From: Pteria penguin
Taxonomy: Eukaryota; Mollusca; Bivalvia; Pterioida; Pteriidae
Assembly: GCA_035048485.1 (NCBI GenBank)
Contig: CM068583.1
Coordinates: 44,483,042 to 44,547,041, forward strand
DNA length: 64,000 nucleotides
Direction of reading: 5' to 3'
Position 1 is the first letter of the stretch. The number at the start of each line of letters is the position of its first letter. This document shows positions 10,055 through 64,000 of this stretch, one piece after another. The position numbers and the translations under genes were made by a program. The notes under the pieces were generated by a model that saw nothing but the letters and a program-made list of their open reading frames with translations, was not told the origin of the DNA and ran no database searches.

Positions 10055-40189
<30,135 letters not shown>

Positions 40190-45087: not shown

Positions 45088-47313
45088 TTGAGGTTTCTTA
45101 TTATAGACGTTGCCAAATGTCGGTTGTTCAATCCAGTTCGTCATACGGAGGACATGTCTTCTAATTCTCATCGCTTTTCCTTAATGCTGAAGTTTGCCAA
45201 TAAAGGCATAGACGCATTGAACATCAGCAATATCCTCAACCATAAGAAAGTTCAGTCTTGCATTCCACTATACTTTAAATATACAGAAACACCATGTATA
45301 TCCTACAGCCATACACCCACCATTGCTTCTAAACCGTTTAATTACAAACAAACTTGGAAGTGCCTAGATATCAAACGTCTTACACAAAACCATACCGCGT
45401 GTTCATATGCTCCTTATCCAAATTTACATATAGTCCTGTTGGTCACATCATCACTGTCGATGTCAACATCGTGAACAATATAACTCTTCGTCAGCTATAA
45501 TTATCCGGGGTCCAAAATTTAGAGAGACTAAAACATTTAATTGGCGAATCAGCGTCCGTATTGTTATGGATTCGGTAGAGGACTATGCTCGTAGATGGGC
45601 AAAACGTGAAGAAGTTGAGCTTAATACGTTGTCAGAATGGGTTAAGAGTGTAAGAAGTTTGATACTCACACGTATTAGTAATTTAAAAAGGAACTTGGGA
45701 CCAGTCATCCGTCTGTCTTCGACGACCAAAGAGTCAGAGAGGAACTCGAAAGAATACACGACAAATATGTGTTAGTACCAGCTAATAAAGCCTCGAACAA
45801 TATCGTTTTTATTTGCAAGGCGTTTTATATAAATTGTCTTTTAGAGCAACTTGGCATTACCAATCTACTGGAAATCCCACTTACACTCGCTCTAAAATCT
45901 CACTAGATGAAATAATTAATAACCATAAGTCAGTGTTGAGTACCTTTAACTTGTGTACTAAGGATAGTGAGTTCGAGTTACCTTATTTATATTGGATCCT
46001 AAATTACACAAAGATCCATATAAACATAGGTTCATTGCAGGATCCAGTAAATGCTCAACCAAACCTCTATCAGCCCCCCCCCCCCTTACCAAAATATTAT
46101 CTGCAATTAAGAAGAAACTTCAGACATACTCCGATGTGATTTACTCTCGTAGTGGTGTTAATCAGTTTTGGATACTAAAAAATTCCAAAGAATTATTGGA
46201 AAACTTAAAATCTCAAAATCTGACAACTGTTAAATTCATTAAGACATGATTTTTCTACACTTTATACCACCAGACCTCATGATGAATTGAAAACCTGGCT
46301 CTTTAGAATTATTGATAACTGTTTCTTCACCAAAAAGGGTTCGCGCAGATATAAATTTATTGTTTTACGATATCCAGATACATATTTTGTGAAAAACCAC
46401 TCTGAATCTAAATATAAGTACTCTGAAGATGACATAAAAACATGCTGGACTTTCTGATTTACAATATATATGTTGTGTTCGGTGACCAGGTCTTCCAACA
46501 AACCATCGGAATCCCTATGGGGACTAACTGTGCTCCCTTGCTAGTCGATTTGTTCCTTTCGTCGTACGAAATTGACTTCATACAAAATCTTATAAGTCAA
46601 AATAAGAAGCAATTGGCCTTGTCCTTTAATTTTACATACAGATATATTGATGATGTACTATCTATAAATAACAAAAACTTTGATACATACGTACATACAA
46701 TATATCCAAAGGAACTTGAAATTAAGGACACCACAATATCCAATTCATGTGCTTCATATTTAGATCTACTTTTTGATGTCGACCGATATGGTAAACTTAC
46801 TACTTCAATTTATGACAAACGTGATGACTTTAGTTTCCCCATTGTTAACTTTCCATATACTAGTAGCAACATTCCTTTATCACCTGTGTACGGTGTTTAT
46901 GTATCCCAACTGATTCGATATGCGCGGGCGTCATCTGAGTATTGCTCTTTCATTTATCGAAGCCAATTACTAGGAGAAAAGTTACTCAAACAAGGATATG
47001 AGATATCACGACTTATGTCAACATTCCGCAAATTTTACGGTCGTTATAAAGTCCTTATTTGCTCATATGATGTATATTTGTCTGACATGTTGACTTCCTT
47101 ATTTCACAGTAACTAAACCATCTGTATTACCTATACTGTACAGCAGTATTCTTACTGCTTATGACATATACCTATTTTGACTACGGCCATGCCGTTTCCT
47201 TATTCTGTGACAGCGAATAATACTATTTCGCTTATACTTATGGCATCACCACGGGTGTGACCGGTCGGCAGGGGATGCTTACTCCTCCATGGCACCTGAT
47301 CCCACCTCTGTTT
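45088..47313 (+). pseudogene. Penelope-like retroelement, reverse transcriptase region, frameshifted
   Basis: Coding sequence for one RT protein is spread over all three frames: 45088-45474 (N-terminal part), 45566-45775, about 45740-45960, 45992-46249, about 46249-46459, then 46442-47116. The last open piece (224 residues) has the RT motifs GIPMGTNCAP (residues 23-32) and YIDD (68-71), followed by the SYLDL and YDKRDDF blocks. Upstream pieces hold counterparts of the PKLHK and D-x-S-T-L-Y-T motifs usual in Penelope-like elements. At least four frameshifts and a stop make it dead. After the stop, a non-coding tail with 'gggtgtgaccggtc' and 'ggggatgcttactcctcc' (47250-47313) looks like the 3' end. 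Exact clade not decided; the Naiad-type elements of aquatic invertebrates are a candidate. Confidence 0.75.
46442..47116 (+). CDS. Reverse transcriptase palm and thumb, longest intact piece of the dead retroelement
   Basis: This 224-residue stretch is the largest unbroken frame of the element at 45088-47313. Metal-binding YIDD is at 46643-46654. The start Met is internal to the original ORF and not a true start. Host codons and flanks give no sign of domestication. Confidence 0.75.
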   Translation: MLDFLIYNIYVVFGDQVFQQTIGIPMGTNCAPLLVDLFLSSYEIDFIQNLISQNKKQLALSFNFTYRYIDDVLSINNKNFDTYVHTIYPKELEIKDTTISNSCASYLDLLFDVDRYGKLTTSIYDKRDDFSFPIVNFPYTSSNIPLSPVYGVYVSQLIRYARASSEYCSFIYRSQLLGEKLLKQGYEISRLMSTFRKFYGRYKVLICSYDVYLSDMLTSLFHSN

Positions 47314-48917: not shown

Positions 48918-49180
48918 GAAAGCCGGTGTGGCTCAGTGGATGAGGTGCTCGTTTCGTGACCGAAAGGTCCCGGGTTCGACCCCCAACGTTGGTTCTGTCA
49001 GATGAGACAGTAAAAACCGAAGTCTCGTGTCATGGTAGGCGTGGCACGTAAACGACCCCTAACTGTCTCGGGGAGGGGGGGGGGGGGCTGAAAGGTGTAA
49101 ATTTCTATTCAATGTATCAGGAAGATATCGCCATATACGTAAAAATAATCGTGAAGTAACGTAAAACAATAATCAGTCGA
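48918..49180 (+). repeat. tRNA-derived SINE, first family
   Basis: Head 'ccggtgtggctcagtggatg' with a B-box 'gggttcgacccc', then 'gatgagacagtaaaaaccga' and 'ggtaggcgtggcacgtaaac'. A G-run (49073-49087) sits in the body. The tail 'gtaacgtaaaacaataatca' follows. A second tRNA-like head without a body follows at about 49196-49260. Confidence 0.85.
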
Positions 49181-49274
49181 CAAACAGTGCTTCATAAGTC
49201 TACTTTGCTCAGTTGGTAAGGTGCTTGGCTCGTAACCGAGAGATAGCGAGTTCAACAGAATAGAGTTGTAAATT

Positions 49275-49474
49275 AAGAAAGTTATAGGCAGGCCAGGACG
49301 GGATGCTGCTACTTTGGAAGGGAAAATTAGCGATATGGAAGTTAAAATCGTCACGTTCGTCATAAGAGAGGCGTGTAACTGACCATCCCTACCGAATGTC
49401 AAGAATAATTCTATGTAGGAAGCAGATGTGTTGCTCTCTGACGTGTCCTTGATCCCAAATTTTGTGGGATACAT
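49275..49474 (-). pseudogene. Penelope-like RT fragment, minus strand
   Basis: Residues of the type YPT-x-x-x-I-K-D-T and SASYIEL correspond to the YPKELEIKDT...SYLDL part of the RT at 46.7 kb. After a frameshift it reaches the SSIPS block. Only about 65 codons remain. Confidence 0.65.
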
Positions 49475-49509
49475 ACGACCGAGTTATTTCTGAAAGTACA
49501 ACCCTTTAA

Positions 49510-60050: not shown

Positions 60051-61097
60051 GCTCCTGGCACTTTTTGGAAATAAATATTTTGACCCTGAAAATGTTTGAA
60101 ATAAATGTCTGGCTTTGACTGAAATGAAAATTAGTATCATGACTGCTAGCATGTACATATACCAGATCATGCAAATATAAAGCTGAATGTTCTGTAGAAA
60201 ACACGTTGATTTTGGCTCGCTTCGCTCGCCAGATTGCTCACTACACTATAATGTGTAGTAGTTAATCCGTATTACTCATATTTCAGCGGAATTTATATCA
60301 TAAATCAAATCATGCTATTCAATATGTTCAACAAAACATAATAGAATTATTGTTTAAAAACATATTTCATGTCCATTTTGAGGGACAGACAAGAGACAAG
60401 GGCTCTACCATCTGCTTTCTGAGAGAATTTCTCGTCATGTTCTTGTTAGGAATAGTGTCATTCACGTCCACTTGCCACCAATTTCCAATTCCTTTCCCCA
60501 ACTTCCCCTCGTGTTTTCCGCCCCTTATTTATATGCCAGACACACCGATATTTTAACGTTAAAACGAGTGGCCAAAAGAGGTCTTAATTGATTTTTGCCT
60601 CATATCTCACCTGAGCACATATGCAAAGTCGATGTTTGAATTAAATCATGTGCATTTCAAAATTTATGGTGGCCATATTTGTTGACAGTGTTTCATTCCT
60701 TTTAAGTTTCATTCCAATCAATGCAACAGAACATTCGTCAAATGATTTTAACACATTTATCAAAATGTAAAATAAAAAAACCCCATAAATTTAAAATGAG
60801 AACAAAAGTAAAACCAACCAAAACATATAACATACATGATAACAAAATGAAAGATTCCGAAGTGGGCCTATATTGTTCACCTGGGACATATAAAACACTG
60901 CCCAATGATATTGAACAATGCTTGTTGATGGCCATGCAAGTCTTTAGTTTCTTTAAAACTTTTAAAGCATGTAAAATTGTACAGGAACATCTTTGCTTAA
61001 AATCTAACAAATTTTCTCAAATTCAGCCTATAAGTAATGAATACAAAGTTAAAAATGTGAAAAATCAATATATCATATATATAAAAAATATTTACCT

Positions 61098-61140
61098 CTT
61101 CTTCCAATATGAAGTGTACTCAAAAATTGAGCGTTACTTA
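61098..61140 (-). repeat. Third copy of the retrotransposon 3' terminus
   Basis: 'ccaatatgaagtgtactcaa', 'aaattgagcgt' differs at two positions from the 58-kb copies. No RT sequence is attached. Confidence 0.65.
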
Positions 61141-61931
61141 TGAAATGCTTTTTTTGCATTAAAATACCCTAGTTCGAAGTAAGTGAAAAATGAATAAAAT
61201 ATTATTATTCAGACAGGAAGCCAAAACAGCAACACTTCATCACACATCCTTCCATAGTGATAAATGAAAATATATATAATCTGAAATGAATTTAAATGTA
61301 TATATATATTTCCGTCTAGGGACCACCTCATTCGGGATCACCTTAGATTATCATGATAATTTTGCTTTAAAAGAAAAAAGAGGAGTTACTGGCTCAGTTA
61401 TGTGGCAGAAGTCACCATGGAGCTATACAATACATGAATATAAATAATATACTAGAACATATAACACATTACAAAAATATTTGATTGTAGTGCAATTACG
61501 ATACCGACTTAGGACGGTCATTCAATTTGACAAAAGCCAAACAAATGGTGTGGTTAACCGGTTTACGGGCCCACCTTCCCACTCACCGTAACAGCAGAAC
61601 AATCAAAGGACGTACATTTAAAAATTTATAAATAATCCTCCATGTAAAGAACAAGGGTCAACAGGTATCGCATATTGGGAGGTCATAAAATATAAACACG
61701 TAAGGTATTGTAAAACACATAATGGTATAAAAATATATGCGACATCAACATGACAAACCGTGCTCTGCCAATCTGAAAGCGAGCTAAGACCCTAGATCTG
61801 TAGGAGTCCCGACTAATAGTCAGAGCAGAGGGGACGAGGTTCAGGACCATGTCTCCTCTGAAAGAGGTTTGGACAAGGCCCGTCATATATATATATTAAT
61901 GACCAAATCCTCTTTTTGCTTACTAAAAGAT
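61141..61931. other. Intergenic, no feature recognised
   Basis: AT-rich with short (TA)n patches near 61270 and 61300; no credible frame or repeat family. Confidence 0.4.
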
Positions 61932-62253
<322 letters not shown>

Positions 62254-62294
62254 ATATAGGGTACCTTGTTAACTGTAGTGTCTTTGTGCTTCAC

Positions 62295-62310
62295 ACACAC
62301 ACACACACAC

Positions 62311-62382
<72 letters not shown>
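62295..62382 (+). repeat. (CA)n microsatellite with (TA)n end
   Basis: CA repeats interrupted once by CTA, ending in ATATATAT just before the retroelement fragment. Confidence 0.95.
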
Positions 62383-62386
<4 letters not shown>

Positions 62387-62388
<2 letters not shown>

Positions 62389-62953
62389 GTATACAAGTAA
62401 AAAATCCAACATTTCCGAGTTAATGGTTGTATTTCACACATTTTCATTTGAAAAAGTGCCATTTGTTATTACACACAACCCCCGTAACCAAAATATCCTT
62501 CTAATAGCAAAAACTAACCTGAGACAGGATGCTAAAATGCGGGAACTGATTAACACGGGATCAATCATTCAAAGTAAACACCAACCTCAGAACCTTAAAC
62601 GGTTACTGATAAGGGCTCGATTTGAGGAAAGAGGAAATAAAACACATACCGTGGAAAAATGCCGGGACAGTCGATGCGGAACATGCCCATACCTATATGA
62701 AGGCGAAAAAGTGGAAATCCCTAATGGAAAACTAATTTTCGTCAATGCGGATATGACATGCAAGAGTGTAAATGTAATCTACTGTATCATATGCAGCGGT
62801 TGCCAAGAAATATACATTGGACAAACGGGGAACCTAACAGAAAGGGTGAGAATCCATCGACAACAAATAAGGCAGCCACACTACAGGAAAATTCCCCTCA
62901 GTAAACATTTAGATGAGTGTTCTGGTCTACTGTCCGCGCCACTCGCTTGGTAA
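62387..62953 (+). pseudogene. Penelope-like GIY-YIG endonuclease domain, cut short by a MITE
   Basis: 188-residue frame. Residues 24-80 hold the pre-domain blocks (KVPFVITHNPRN, NLKRLLIRARF). A cysteine cluster KCRDSRCGTC is at 91-100. GIY-YIG nuclease motifs follow: VIYCIICSGCQEIYIGQT (130-147), Arg153 and the HRQQI stretch from His157, then KH at 173-174 with Cys178. Such nucleases nick DNA for target-primed insertion of Penelope-like elements. The last codons (from about 182) come from a MITE inserted at TA 62928-62929. The 5' end merges into an inverted terminal repeat, so ATG 62387 is not the original start. The RT part of the element is missing here. Confidence 0.82.
62396..62442 (-). 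repeat. Inverted terminal repeat, left copy
   Basis: About 45 bp, 'aagtaaaaaatccaacattt' to 'gttgtatttcacac', present in reverse at 63562-63607 with one mismatch. It is out of the usual direct order but known for Penelope-like element ends, which can be inverted. Confidence 0.85.
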
Positions 62954-63391
62954 ACCGAAAAATCTGGATTTTCACTTATTTATCTTTAAAATAGTTTTAC
63001 AAAATTAATATCAATCGATAGATCTTGTTTAGTCGTAACTTTTGGTGTATGTTATATGTTTATACAAAGAAGCATTCGTATTTTATAGGGAAAATTCATT
63101 TTAGATAGGGCGTTTTCTATGTTAATTTTGACGTGACGTCGCCGATGTTTAACACTGAATCTATGGGAAACTTGGCGACGTCACGTCAAAATTTAACATG
63201 GAAATCGCCATATCTAAAATAGATTTTTTTCTATAAGATATGAACGCTTCTTCATACAAACATATAGCATACACCAAAAGTTACGACAAAACAAGATCTA
63301 TCGAATGGTTTTTCCTTTTTGACATTATTCTGAAGATGAATAACTGAAAATCCAGATTTTCCAGTTTCAAGAATGAGTGGCGCGGACAGTA
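62928..63391. mobile_element. Foldback MITE, TA target, inserted in the GIY-YIG frame
   Basis: Ends CTGTCCGCGCCACTC and its complement (...GAGTGGCGCGGACAG) are flanked by TA on both sides. Almost the entire 460 bp is inverted-repeat: arms of about 215 bp run to a centre near 63150-63165 with the perfect blocks 'tttgacgtgacgtcgcc' and its complement. TA duplication and long arms fit a Tc1/mariner-type non-autonomous element. No transposase. Confidence 0.88.
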
Positions 63392-63514
63392 AGCTCAACT
63401 CTAATTATTCATTTTCCATTATATAACGTCAAAAAATTCAATAGGAATTTTACTAATAAACTCCCTTTTATTATTGATACTATGACGTCAGTAACATAGT
63501 TACGTTATAAGCAT

Positions 63515-63576
63515 GTTGTTTAGTTCACCTGAAGATTGTTTTATAAAAACATGAAAGTACTTGTGTGAAATACAAC
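63515..63576 (+). ncRNA. Candidate type I hammerhead ribozyme in retroelement terminus
   Basis: Core box CTGAAGA (63529-63535, fits CUGANGA), stem II (TGTTTT/AAAACA around ATA), core box GAAA (63553-63556) and a minimal stem III (AG/CU). The cleavage site would be after U63562. Stem I is closed by CAC 63526-63528 with GTG 63563-63565 and by GTTGT 63515-63519 with ACAAC 63572-63576, with an internal loop between. Minimal type I hammerheads are known from Penelope-like elements. The U-U at the base of stem II is a departure from the usual G-C pair, so activity may be weak or lost. Confidence 0.55.
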
Positions 63577-63607
63577 GATTAACTCGGAAATGTTGGATTT
63601 TTTACTT
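63562..63607 (+). repeat. Inverted terminal repeat, right copy
   Basis: Reverse copy of 62396-62442. Its left edge lies within one base of the predicted hammerhead cleavage site. Confidence 0.85.
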
Positions 63608-63643
63608 ATAGATATATTATTCTATACACAAGAACACTTTTAT

Positions 63644-63644
63644 T

Positions 63645-63715
<71 letters not shown>

Positions 63716-63747
63716 CTATATATATATATAATATATATATATATATA
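63644..63747. repeat. (TC)n-(TA)n microsatellite
   Basis: About 25 TC units followed by a broken TA tract. Confidence 0.95.
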
Positions 63748-64000
63748 TTCCATTTTCATTCTTGTATATATCATTACTGGTCTTAATAATGCGTTCCAGT
63801 CCAATAATACGTGGATTGTTTTTGGTAACTACTAATAATGTGCATTTTGAATTATCCTTAGTACTATTTTGATTGTATTTCTCTCTGTGGGTAAAAGCTT
63901 CTAATTGCTAGATGAATTTCAGTGTTAGAGTAACTCTCTCTGATAAGTTTTTTCTAAAGTCTTAATAGTAGATATTACAGATACCTGGGCACACCGGTGT
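63748..64000. other. Window end, no feature recognised
   Basis: AT-rich sequence without recognisable frame or repeat. Confidence 0.4.

Follow-up and report, generated by a model that had tools for sequence, protein, structure and literature searches.

A hammerhead-like motif lies shortly behind a Penelope-like element (PLE) frame near one end of the window, that is, the whole stretch of 64,000 nucleotides of Pteria penguin DNA that was analysed. The question raised by this locus is whether the motif belongs to a ribozyme and whether cleavage by that ribozyme has left a trace in the places where genomic copies of the element begin. Minimal hammerheads in PLEs are already known (PMC6155905, PMC7761336 and PMC7229834, in their accessible text); the new evidence here is in the insertion junctions, not in the presence of a hammerhead in a PLE.

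Anatomy of the motif and of its element

From the letters of the window, the original prediction had described CTGAAGA, a six-pair stem II, GAAA, a two-pair stem III and two separate stem I helices. Reading of positions 61000–64000 confirmed a hammerhead-like motif at 63515–63576 with every element in the claimed order and place (Table 1). The window copy has the type I core, namely CUGANGA, GAAA, A15.1-U16.1 and an H17 that is not G. Three helices can be drawn around this core in type I order; free folding prefers rival pairings and favours TTCAC/GTGAA, a two-base shift from the inner stem I CAC/GTG. The closing pair of stem II (10.1/11.1) is U-U and not Watson-Crick, whereas in natural hammerheads it is usually a G-C pair. 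The preferred reading of the stretch is a minimal type I hammerhead, probably dimeric, of the kind reported for PLEs, among which a weak stem III is common according to the accessible text of PMC6155905 and PMC7761336.

Table 1. Coordinates of the motif and of the element copy in the window
Feature	Position	Strand	Remarks
Outer stem I, 5' strand GTTGT	63515..63519	+	pairs with 63572-63576; helix also in unconstrained folds
Inner stem I, 5' strand CAC	63526..63528	+	hammerhead pairing with GTG 63563-63565
Catalytic core CTGAAGA (CUGANGA)	63529..63535	+	core bases kept across copies
Stem II	63536..63552	+	U-U 63536/63552; six pairs 63537-63542/63546-63551; loop ATA
Catalytic core GAAA (G12 A13 A14 A15.1)	63553..63556	+	kept across copies
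Palindrome AGTACT	63556..63561	+	stem III: 2 bp in monomer, 6 bp between two molecules
Predicted cleavage site	63562..63563	+	after T63562 (H17); 3' product would begin with G63563
Stem I 3' strands	GTG 63563-63565, ACAAC 63572-63576	+	
5'-truncated PLE reading frame, part of GIY-YIG endonuclease	62441..62926	+	
Foldback insertion	62928..63391	.	replaces about 96 bp of endonuclease end
Last PLE codons and stop, KLNSNYSFSII-stop	63391..63426	+	counterpart in copy L029 ends KFNSNYSFSII-stop
Tail to first inferred reverse transcription start site	63563..63607	+	contains stem I 3' strands
Optional tail extension to second inferred start site	63608..63649	+	window copy stops here, then (CT)n
Short inverted arm	62395..62439	-	reverse complement of 63563-63607, 44/45

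The rarity of the motif was gauged with a descriptor that combines CTGANGA, GAAA and H17 with minimum helix lengths, namely five pairs in stem II (of which the first may be a mismatch), two in stem III and three in stem I. This resulted in one match in the 64-kb window against none in 150 dinucleotide shuffles, both strands included, and a further set of 200 shuffles averaged 0 matches each with a strict form of the descriptor, 0.03 with a middle form and 0.125 with a loose one, figures that are a guide rather than a blind test as the descriptor was written after the motif had been seen. The bare pattern CTGANGA...GAAA is not rare, with 7 matches in the window versus 4.1 expected.

The hammerhead is situated roughly 100 nt past the PLE stop codon and inside the terminal repeat, or pseudo-LTR; PLE copies carry a terminal pseudo-LTR with an optional tail and inverted arms. 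The GIY-YIG frame that had been noted upstream is real, scoring 24.7 bits against Pfam PF01541 (cut-off 22.6) and having 19 homologues at E ≤ 0.001 among 27 candidates, with proteins of Mytilus coruscus and Pinctada imbricata among the 19. The frame is, however, 5'-truncated and interrupted by a foldback. The arms of the foldback (62928–63102 and 63217–63391) are 175 nt long and 80% alike, and its ends are TACTGTCCGCGCC. In copy L029 the endonuclease stretch is uninterrupted where the window copy has the foldback. With its truncated and interrupted frame the window copy is dead as an element; its ribozyme core is intact. No relatives outside its own genome were found in protein-based scans of viral and genome contigs. 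Scanned with 16-mers, the viral contigs yielded 20 loci at which the tail matched over just 16 to 42 bases, and these were taken as chance.

Other repeats were observed elsewhere in the window. Frames at 46433–47116 and 49109–49483 resemble by eye a different reverse transcriptase, the first containing YIDDVL. Two arrays of a related 161-nt satellite unit occupy 14728–15359 and 26756–27496, and a near-perfect inverted pair at 62041–62258 (101 nt, 92%, with 16 nt between) resembles by eye a tRNA-derived repeat in two facing units.

Conservation and folding of the hammerhead in two subfamilies

Copies were collected from the 838-Mb assembly, in which a 103-base query gave at least 49 matches (40 of 110 candidates scored). 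A tail pattern (63567–63597, up to 3 mismatches) was found at 71 places, an outer tail pattern at 69, many of them belonging to a diverged subfamily B, a B tail pattern at 59 and a core pattern at 90, while the reversed-pattern control for the first and the controls for the other three each gave 0. The stretches compared, the window included, contain 71 first-pattern and 59 B-pattern places at the same mismatch limits. Seven further copies of subfamily A and nine of B were retrieved from the outer-tail places, the others lying, by coordinates, inside stretches already retrieved. Core places left out include C1:47394887, C5:23390684, C6:52327156 and C9:17926882. The A alignment comprised 43 copies out of 50 passing 75% identity; those left out (L045+, L031+, L060-, L062+, L074+, L072- and L069+) mostly have an upstream part other than the standard repeat.

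Across the 43 A copies the CUGANGA box was retained at C3 in 40, U4 in 42, G5 in 41, A6 in 43, G8 in 38 and A9 in 43, and GAAA at G12 in 41, A13 in 42, A14 in 42 and A15.1 in 43. H17 was U in every copy (43/43). Each core position was thus kept in 38–43 copies, and the whole core was intact together in 28. The U-U pair at the base of stem II, pointed out earlier as a weakness, is indeed present but is not decay; with U at 10.1 in 41/43 copies and at 11.1 in 42/43 it is a family trait.

Subfamily B retains CACCTGAAGATTGT, ACATGAAAGTACTT and GTG, and on the 3' side beyond these it is unlike A. Its outer stem I is ACATTCA/TGAATGT as compared to GTTGT/ACAAC in A, meaning that both sides have changed with pairing retained in another register. 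Stem II of B has only three clear pairs, the distal pairs having been lost.

Compensatory change, the absence of which had been named as a refuting outcome, did not exceed chance among the 43 near-identical A copies. Stem II cells were paired in 94.0% of cases, with zero pairs changed on both sides. Over 39 distinct A rows, 91.9% of cells were paired versus 91.8% in shuffles, and one pair changed on both sides was observed versus 0.8; the covariation score was reached by 67 of 500 shuffles, and there is thus no covariation signal. Sliding the partners lowered pairing to 33–64%, as expected when a structure is drawn on one row. The proposed covariance-model check was likewise negative: Rfam gave no hammerhead at the gathering threshold anywhere in the window and none up to E = 10 in 62300–63700, in 63505–63585 or in five related loci. 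These negatives were not taken as refutation on account of the close similarity of the copies and the missing positive control for Rfam, which would be a known minimal PLE hammerhead.

The minimum free energy of the motif was unremarkable (z = -0.69). A competing monomer fold reached -9.9 kcal/mol versus -5.5 kcal/mol for the hammerhead drawn without stem III. A duplex of two molecules was better (-23.6 versus 2 x -9.9 kcal/mol) and had the palindrome paired within it; this duplex pairs the eight bases AAGTACTT, so that A14 and U17 are buried. When the core was held open in a longer sequence taken from other copies, the dimer with a 6-bp stem III persisted at -24.0 kcal/mol versus -29.8 kcal/mol unconstrained. 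The best predicted dimers bury part of the core. The earlier interpretation of a type I hammerhead at the 3' end of a PLE is supported in that it fits the sequence, the position and the published PLE hammerheads.

Insertion ends at the predicted cleavage site

Insertion ends were numbered such that the predicted 3' cleavage product begins at position 0 (G63563 in the window). The predicted 5' end coincides with genomic insertion junctions. In the window, the 45-nt inverted arm terminates at the predicted cleavage site, 63562/63563; T63562 also matches and the next base differs, so that the junction is 62439/62440 or 62440/62441. The original prediction had given 63563 as the 5' end with no mention of the inverted repeat. 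Self-priming on the stem III palindrome was rejected as a source of the inverted arm since the palindrome is absent from the arm's junction in the window.

Four further A copies (L075, L080, L081 and L085) start at 0 and differ from the element in the base before it, although in L085 two bases beyond the differing one match again. Three start at +1 (L067, L083 and L084+). The inverted arms of the window and L036 have one T before 0 in common with the element, while L068 and L076 are ambiguous, sharing three and four bases before 0. Similar ends were observed in subfamily B, where L122 and L140 start at 0 with a different preceding base, L111-, L121-, L138- and one L138+ end share two T before 0, and L111+ and the other L138+ lie at +1. 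Hence not every end is at 0, as inverted arms overrun the site by one (A) or two (B) bases and others begin at +1. The upstream flanks of eleven A copies, L068 and L076 included, showed no mutual resemblance in BLAST with low-complexity masking, apart from a match of L084+ to L036- that was taken as element sequence in their other arms. The eleven were treated as separate insertions on account of these unlike flanks, (AT)n flanks being indistinguishable to masked BLAST.

Two observations on fused sequences were made among the genomic copies. In L080 the tail that starts at the cleavage site abuts a short sense piece resembling PLE frame, much as a template jump would leave it. The PLE tail is also fused to another repeat (GTATTGTATAGCTCCATGGTGAC...), near the cleavage site in L068 and about 24 nt upstream of it in L069; this repeat was also noted in the window at about 61360–61440 (other strand) and in L045, and it may be a template-jump partner.

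The concentration of ends was evaluated by machine calling with gaps, with P values from a uniform null that is crude. Pooled over A and B, 15 of 81 ends fell within -2 to +1 where approximately 2.7 were expected (P ~8e-8). Separately, the counts were 8 of 51 in A (expected 1.7, P 2.8e-4) and 7 of 30 in B (expected 1.0, P 5e-5). These ends are the ones in the range -70 to +48, which held 51 of 79 A and 30 of 59 B ends; 1 A and 25 B ends at the edge of the compared sequence were unused. The interval -2 to +1 was the densest 4-nt window in A, tied with -1 to +2, and in B (scan P 0.025 and 0.005, respectively). The A ends called within it were WIN-, L075, L080, L081, L067, L084+, L073+ and L091-, of which L073+ and L091- would be excluded by eye. 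Three A ends that curation by hand counted were drawn away from the site by chance matches (L085, called at -3; L036-, at -4; L083, at -23), as was L122 in B (at -3).

Curation by hand gave 9 of 26 A ends (range -26 to +48, expected 1.4, P 5e-6) and 8 of 26 B ends (range -40 to +26, expected 1.55, P 1e-4). In A, 31 of 72 ends lie at 63537 or later; ten rows in which the element runs on upstream of an indel or deletion were dropped (L077-, L039-, L071+, L072-, L047-, L070-, L050-, L073+, L063- and L086-) and 21 were kept. Dropping lowered the count, as L050- and L073+ had been called at +1. None of the 26 in-range B rows was dropped. The pattern found at 71 places starts at +4 and would miss copies starting further downstream, which is why the outer-tail search was run; it requires a long tail and so undercounts copies ending at the first start site. 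With this search, six A copies beginning downstream of the cleavage site (L091 and L093–L097) were gained, along with L092, which has the whole motif. The six were added to the curated set, L096 being out of range and L092 excluded for its full motif with indels, which brings the total to 26. Because the six start downstream, the peak is not simply a rising slope cut off at its edge. Allowing one arm per insertion left A at a median P of 3e-6 (worst 3e-5) and weakened B to a median of 0.004 (worst 0.024). A junction peak is thus present in both subfamilies.

To judge from the genomic copies, the ribozyme in the PLE pseudo-LTR probably cut RNA in vivo, with reverse transcriptase then running off the end so made. 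An alternative that we consider unlikely is that the hammerhead is real and the pile-up stems from pausing or template switching of reverse transcriptase in a structured repeat, with the site at a hot spot. End clusters do arise elsewhere, as 8 A ends lie at -59 to -54 (TTATAAGCATG; copies include L030, L032, L033, L040, L046 and L065) and 6 B ends at -14 to -8; as a guess, the former are transcript starts just upstream of stem I and the latter stops against stem II. In addition, ends around the site spread from -4 to +3, and cleavage-dead RNA of the Anolis PLE still inserted in vitro (PMC11167929, accessible text). A pause at stem I should however leave ends on the 3' side of that stem, at +3 or beyond, while six copies start at 0 with a differing base before it; copying passes the stem I strand GTG and halts at its far edge, which makes pausing less likely. 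Furthermore, the functional place of the peak is common to A and B despite their differing sequence from +3 onwards, and the position had been predicted without junction data.

A merely accidental match in AT-rich repeat DNA, with no ribozyme behind it, is highly improbable. The absence of an Rfam hit, the ordinary folding energy and the lack of excess covariation would agree with this, yet no match occurred in the 150 shuffles, B keeps the core though its flanks differ, the junction peak sits at the predicted place and hammerheads are reported as a constant PLE feature (PMC6155905, accessible text). Least probable is a cut of the same phosphodiester by a nuclease, either a host enzyme or the element's protein, which would yield identical junctions and recalls the protein requirement of the Anolis hammerhead in vitro, as the cut site is where a hammerhead cuts and mutants in C3 and G8 of the Anolis hammerhead abolished RNA cleavage while endonuclease mutants did not (PMC11167929, in the part available).

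Two-armed insertions and a possible route of insertion

Four insertions (the window, L036, L122/L123 and L139/L140) contain a short arm that extends between the first tail site and the cleavage site, together with a longer arm from the second tail site into the pseudo-LTR or the open reading frame. From their closeness and facing orientation, L122/L123 and L139/L140 were each read as one insertion. In L111, L121 and the L138 pair two tails lie head to head and both arms end at or near the site, the second arm of L121 at +3. In all seven two-armed insertions with an end at the cleavage site that were compared, namely these three and the former four, the two arms have different starts, the first tail site for one and the second for its partner. 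Such a difference hints that a single complex held a pair of RNA molecules of which at least one had been cut.

Some other arrangements were noted. L083, a short inverted tail from +1, and L029, a long copy, lie in facing orientation at a distance of 3.6 kb (C14:21677250-21683000) and are possibly one insertion of the window's kind; the short arm of L083 extends to the second tail site and may not fit the pattern of the seven. L060 (39 to 60 nt) and L062 (51–52 nt) contain short head-to-tail units spanning most of the hammerhead, in L060:1474-1691 and L062:3260-3442, and the unit joints of L062 break the CUGA box. Ribozyme-made circles were rejected as an origin of these tandem units; their ends do not match the cleavage site.

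The proposed route is as follows. The ribozyme would cut PLE RNA after U63562, probably by means of two molecules sharing an AGUACU stem III. Reverse transcription would begin in the tail, 45–90 nt downstream of the cut, and continue to the freed 5' end, where it would run off; the resulting short cDNA would start at G63563. In two-armed insertions, this short product would go to one target strand and a longer cDNA made from uncut RNA to the other, and joining of the two would leave the short inverted arm. Somewhat more guardedly than cleavage itself, we favour the reading that cleaved PLE RNA was a working template of germ-line insertion, with the ribozyme setting the end of one of the two cDNAs.

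Several known systems resemble parts of this route. Minimal type I hammerheads of PLEs have reportedly been described by Cervera and de la Pena in 2014 and by Lunse et al. in 2017. The motif shares with them its place in the pseudo-LTR, the CUGANGA/GAAA core, a tiny stem III and likely dimeric action. As far as citing papers tell, it differs from them in the U-U closing pair of nearly every copy and in the coincidence of genomic junctions with the cleavage site.

R2 retrotransposons have 5' HDV-like ribozymes and are site-specific rDNA elements. As in R2, the ribozyme cut would define the 5' end of the RNA template, while R2 differs in its ribozyme fold and in its site-specific insertion into rDNA.

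In PAc, a PLE of Anolis carolinensis, reverse transcription starts internally at two adjacent sites and copies are made from both target strands, the hammerhead is protein-assisted, insertion in vitro persisted with hammerhead mutants, and not one read was observed to start or stop at the hammerhead site, according to the accessible part of PMC11167929. The present element is like PAc, as far as that part goes, in its hammerhead at the pLTR-ORF junction, in two start sites that define an optional tail and in the use of both strands. Here, unlike PAc, genomic copies begin at the hammerhead site, whereas cleavage in PAc is described there as dispensable for insertion in vitro. In the accessible text on Penelope elements of Adineta vaga (PMC3846280), pLTRs are inverted with a tail optionally on one arm; an inverted pLTR arm at the 5' end and an optional tail on one inverted pLTR are thus common to both systems. 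The ends of those arms are described in that text as palindromes or shortened pLTRs, unlike here, and the word "hammerhead" is absent from the paper (PMC3846280). No report of insertion ends at a hammerhead site was found in the open-licence literature as far as its text was accessible, a scope outside which the main papers on PLE hammerheads lie.

If it holds, the pile-up of ends links the ribozyme to a step of insertion and preserves a legible trace of cleavage in vivo, one open to counting wherever a genome bears PLEs.
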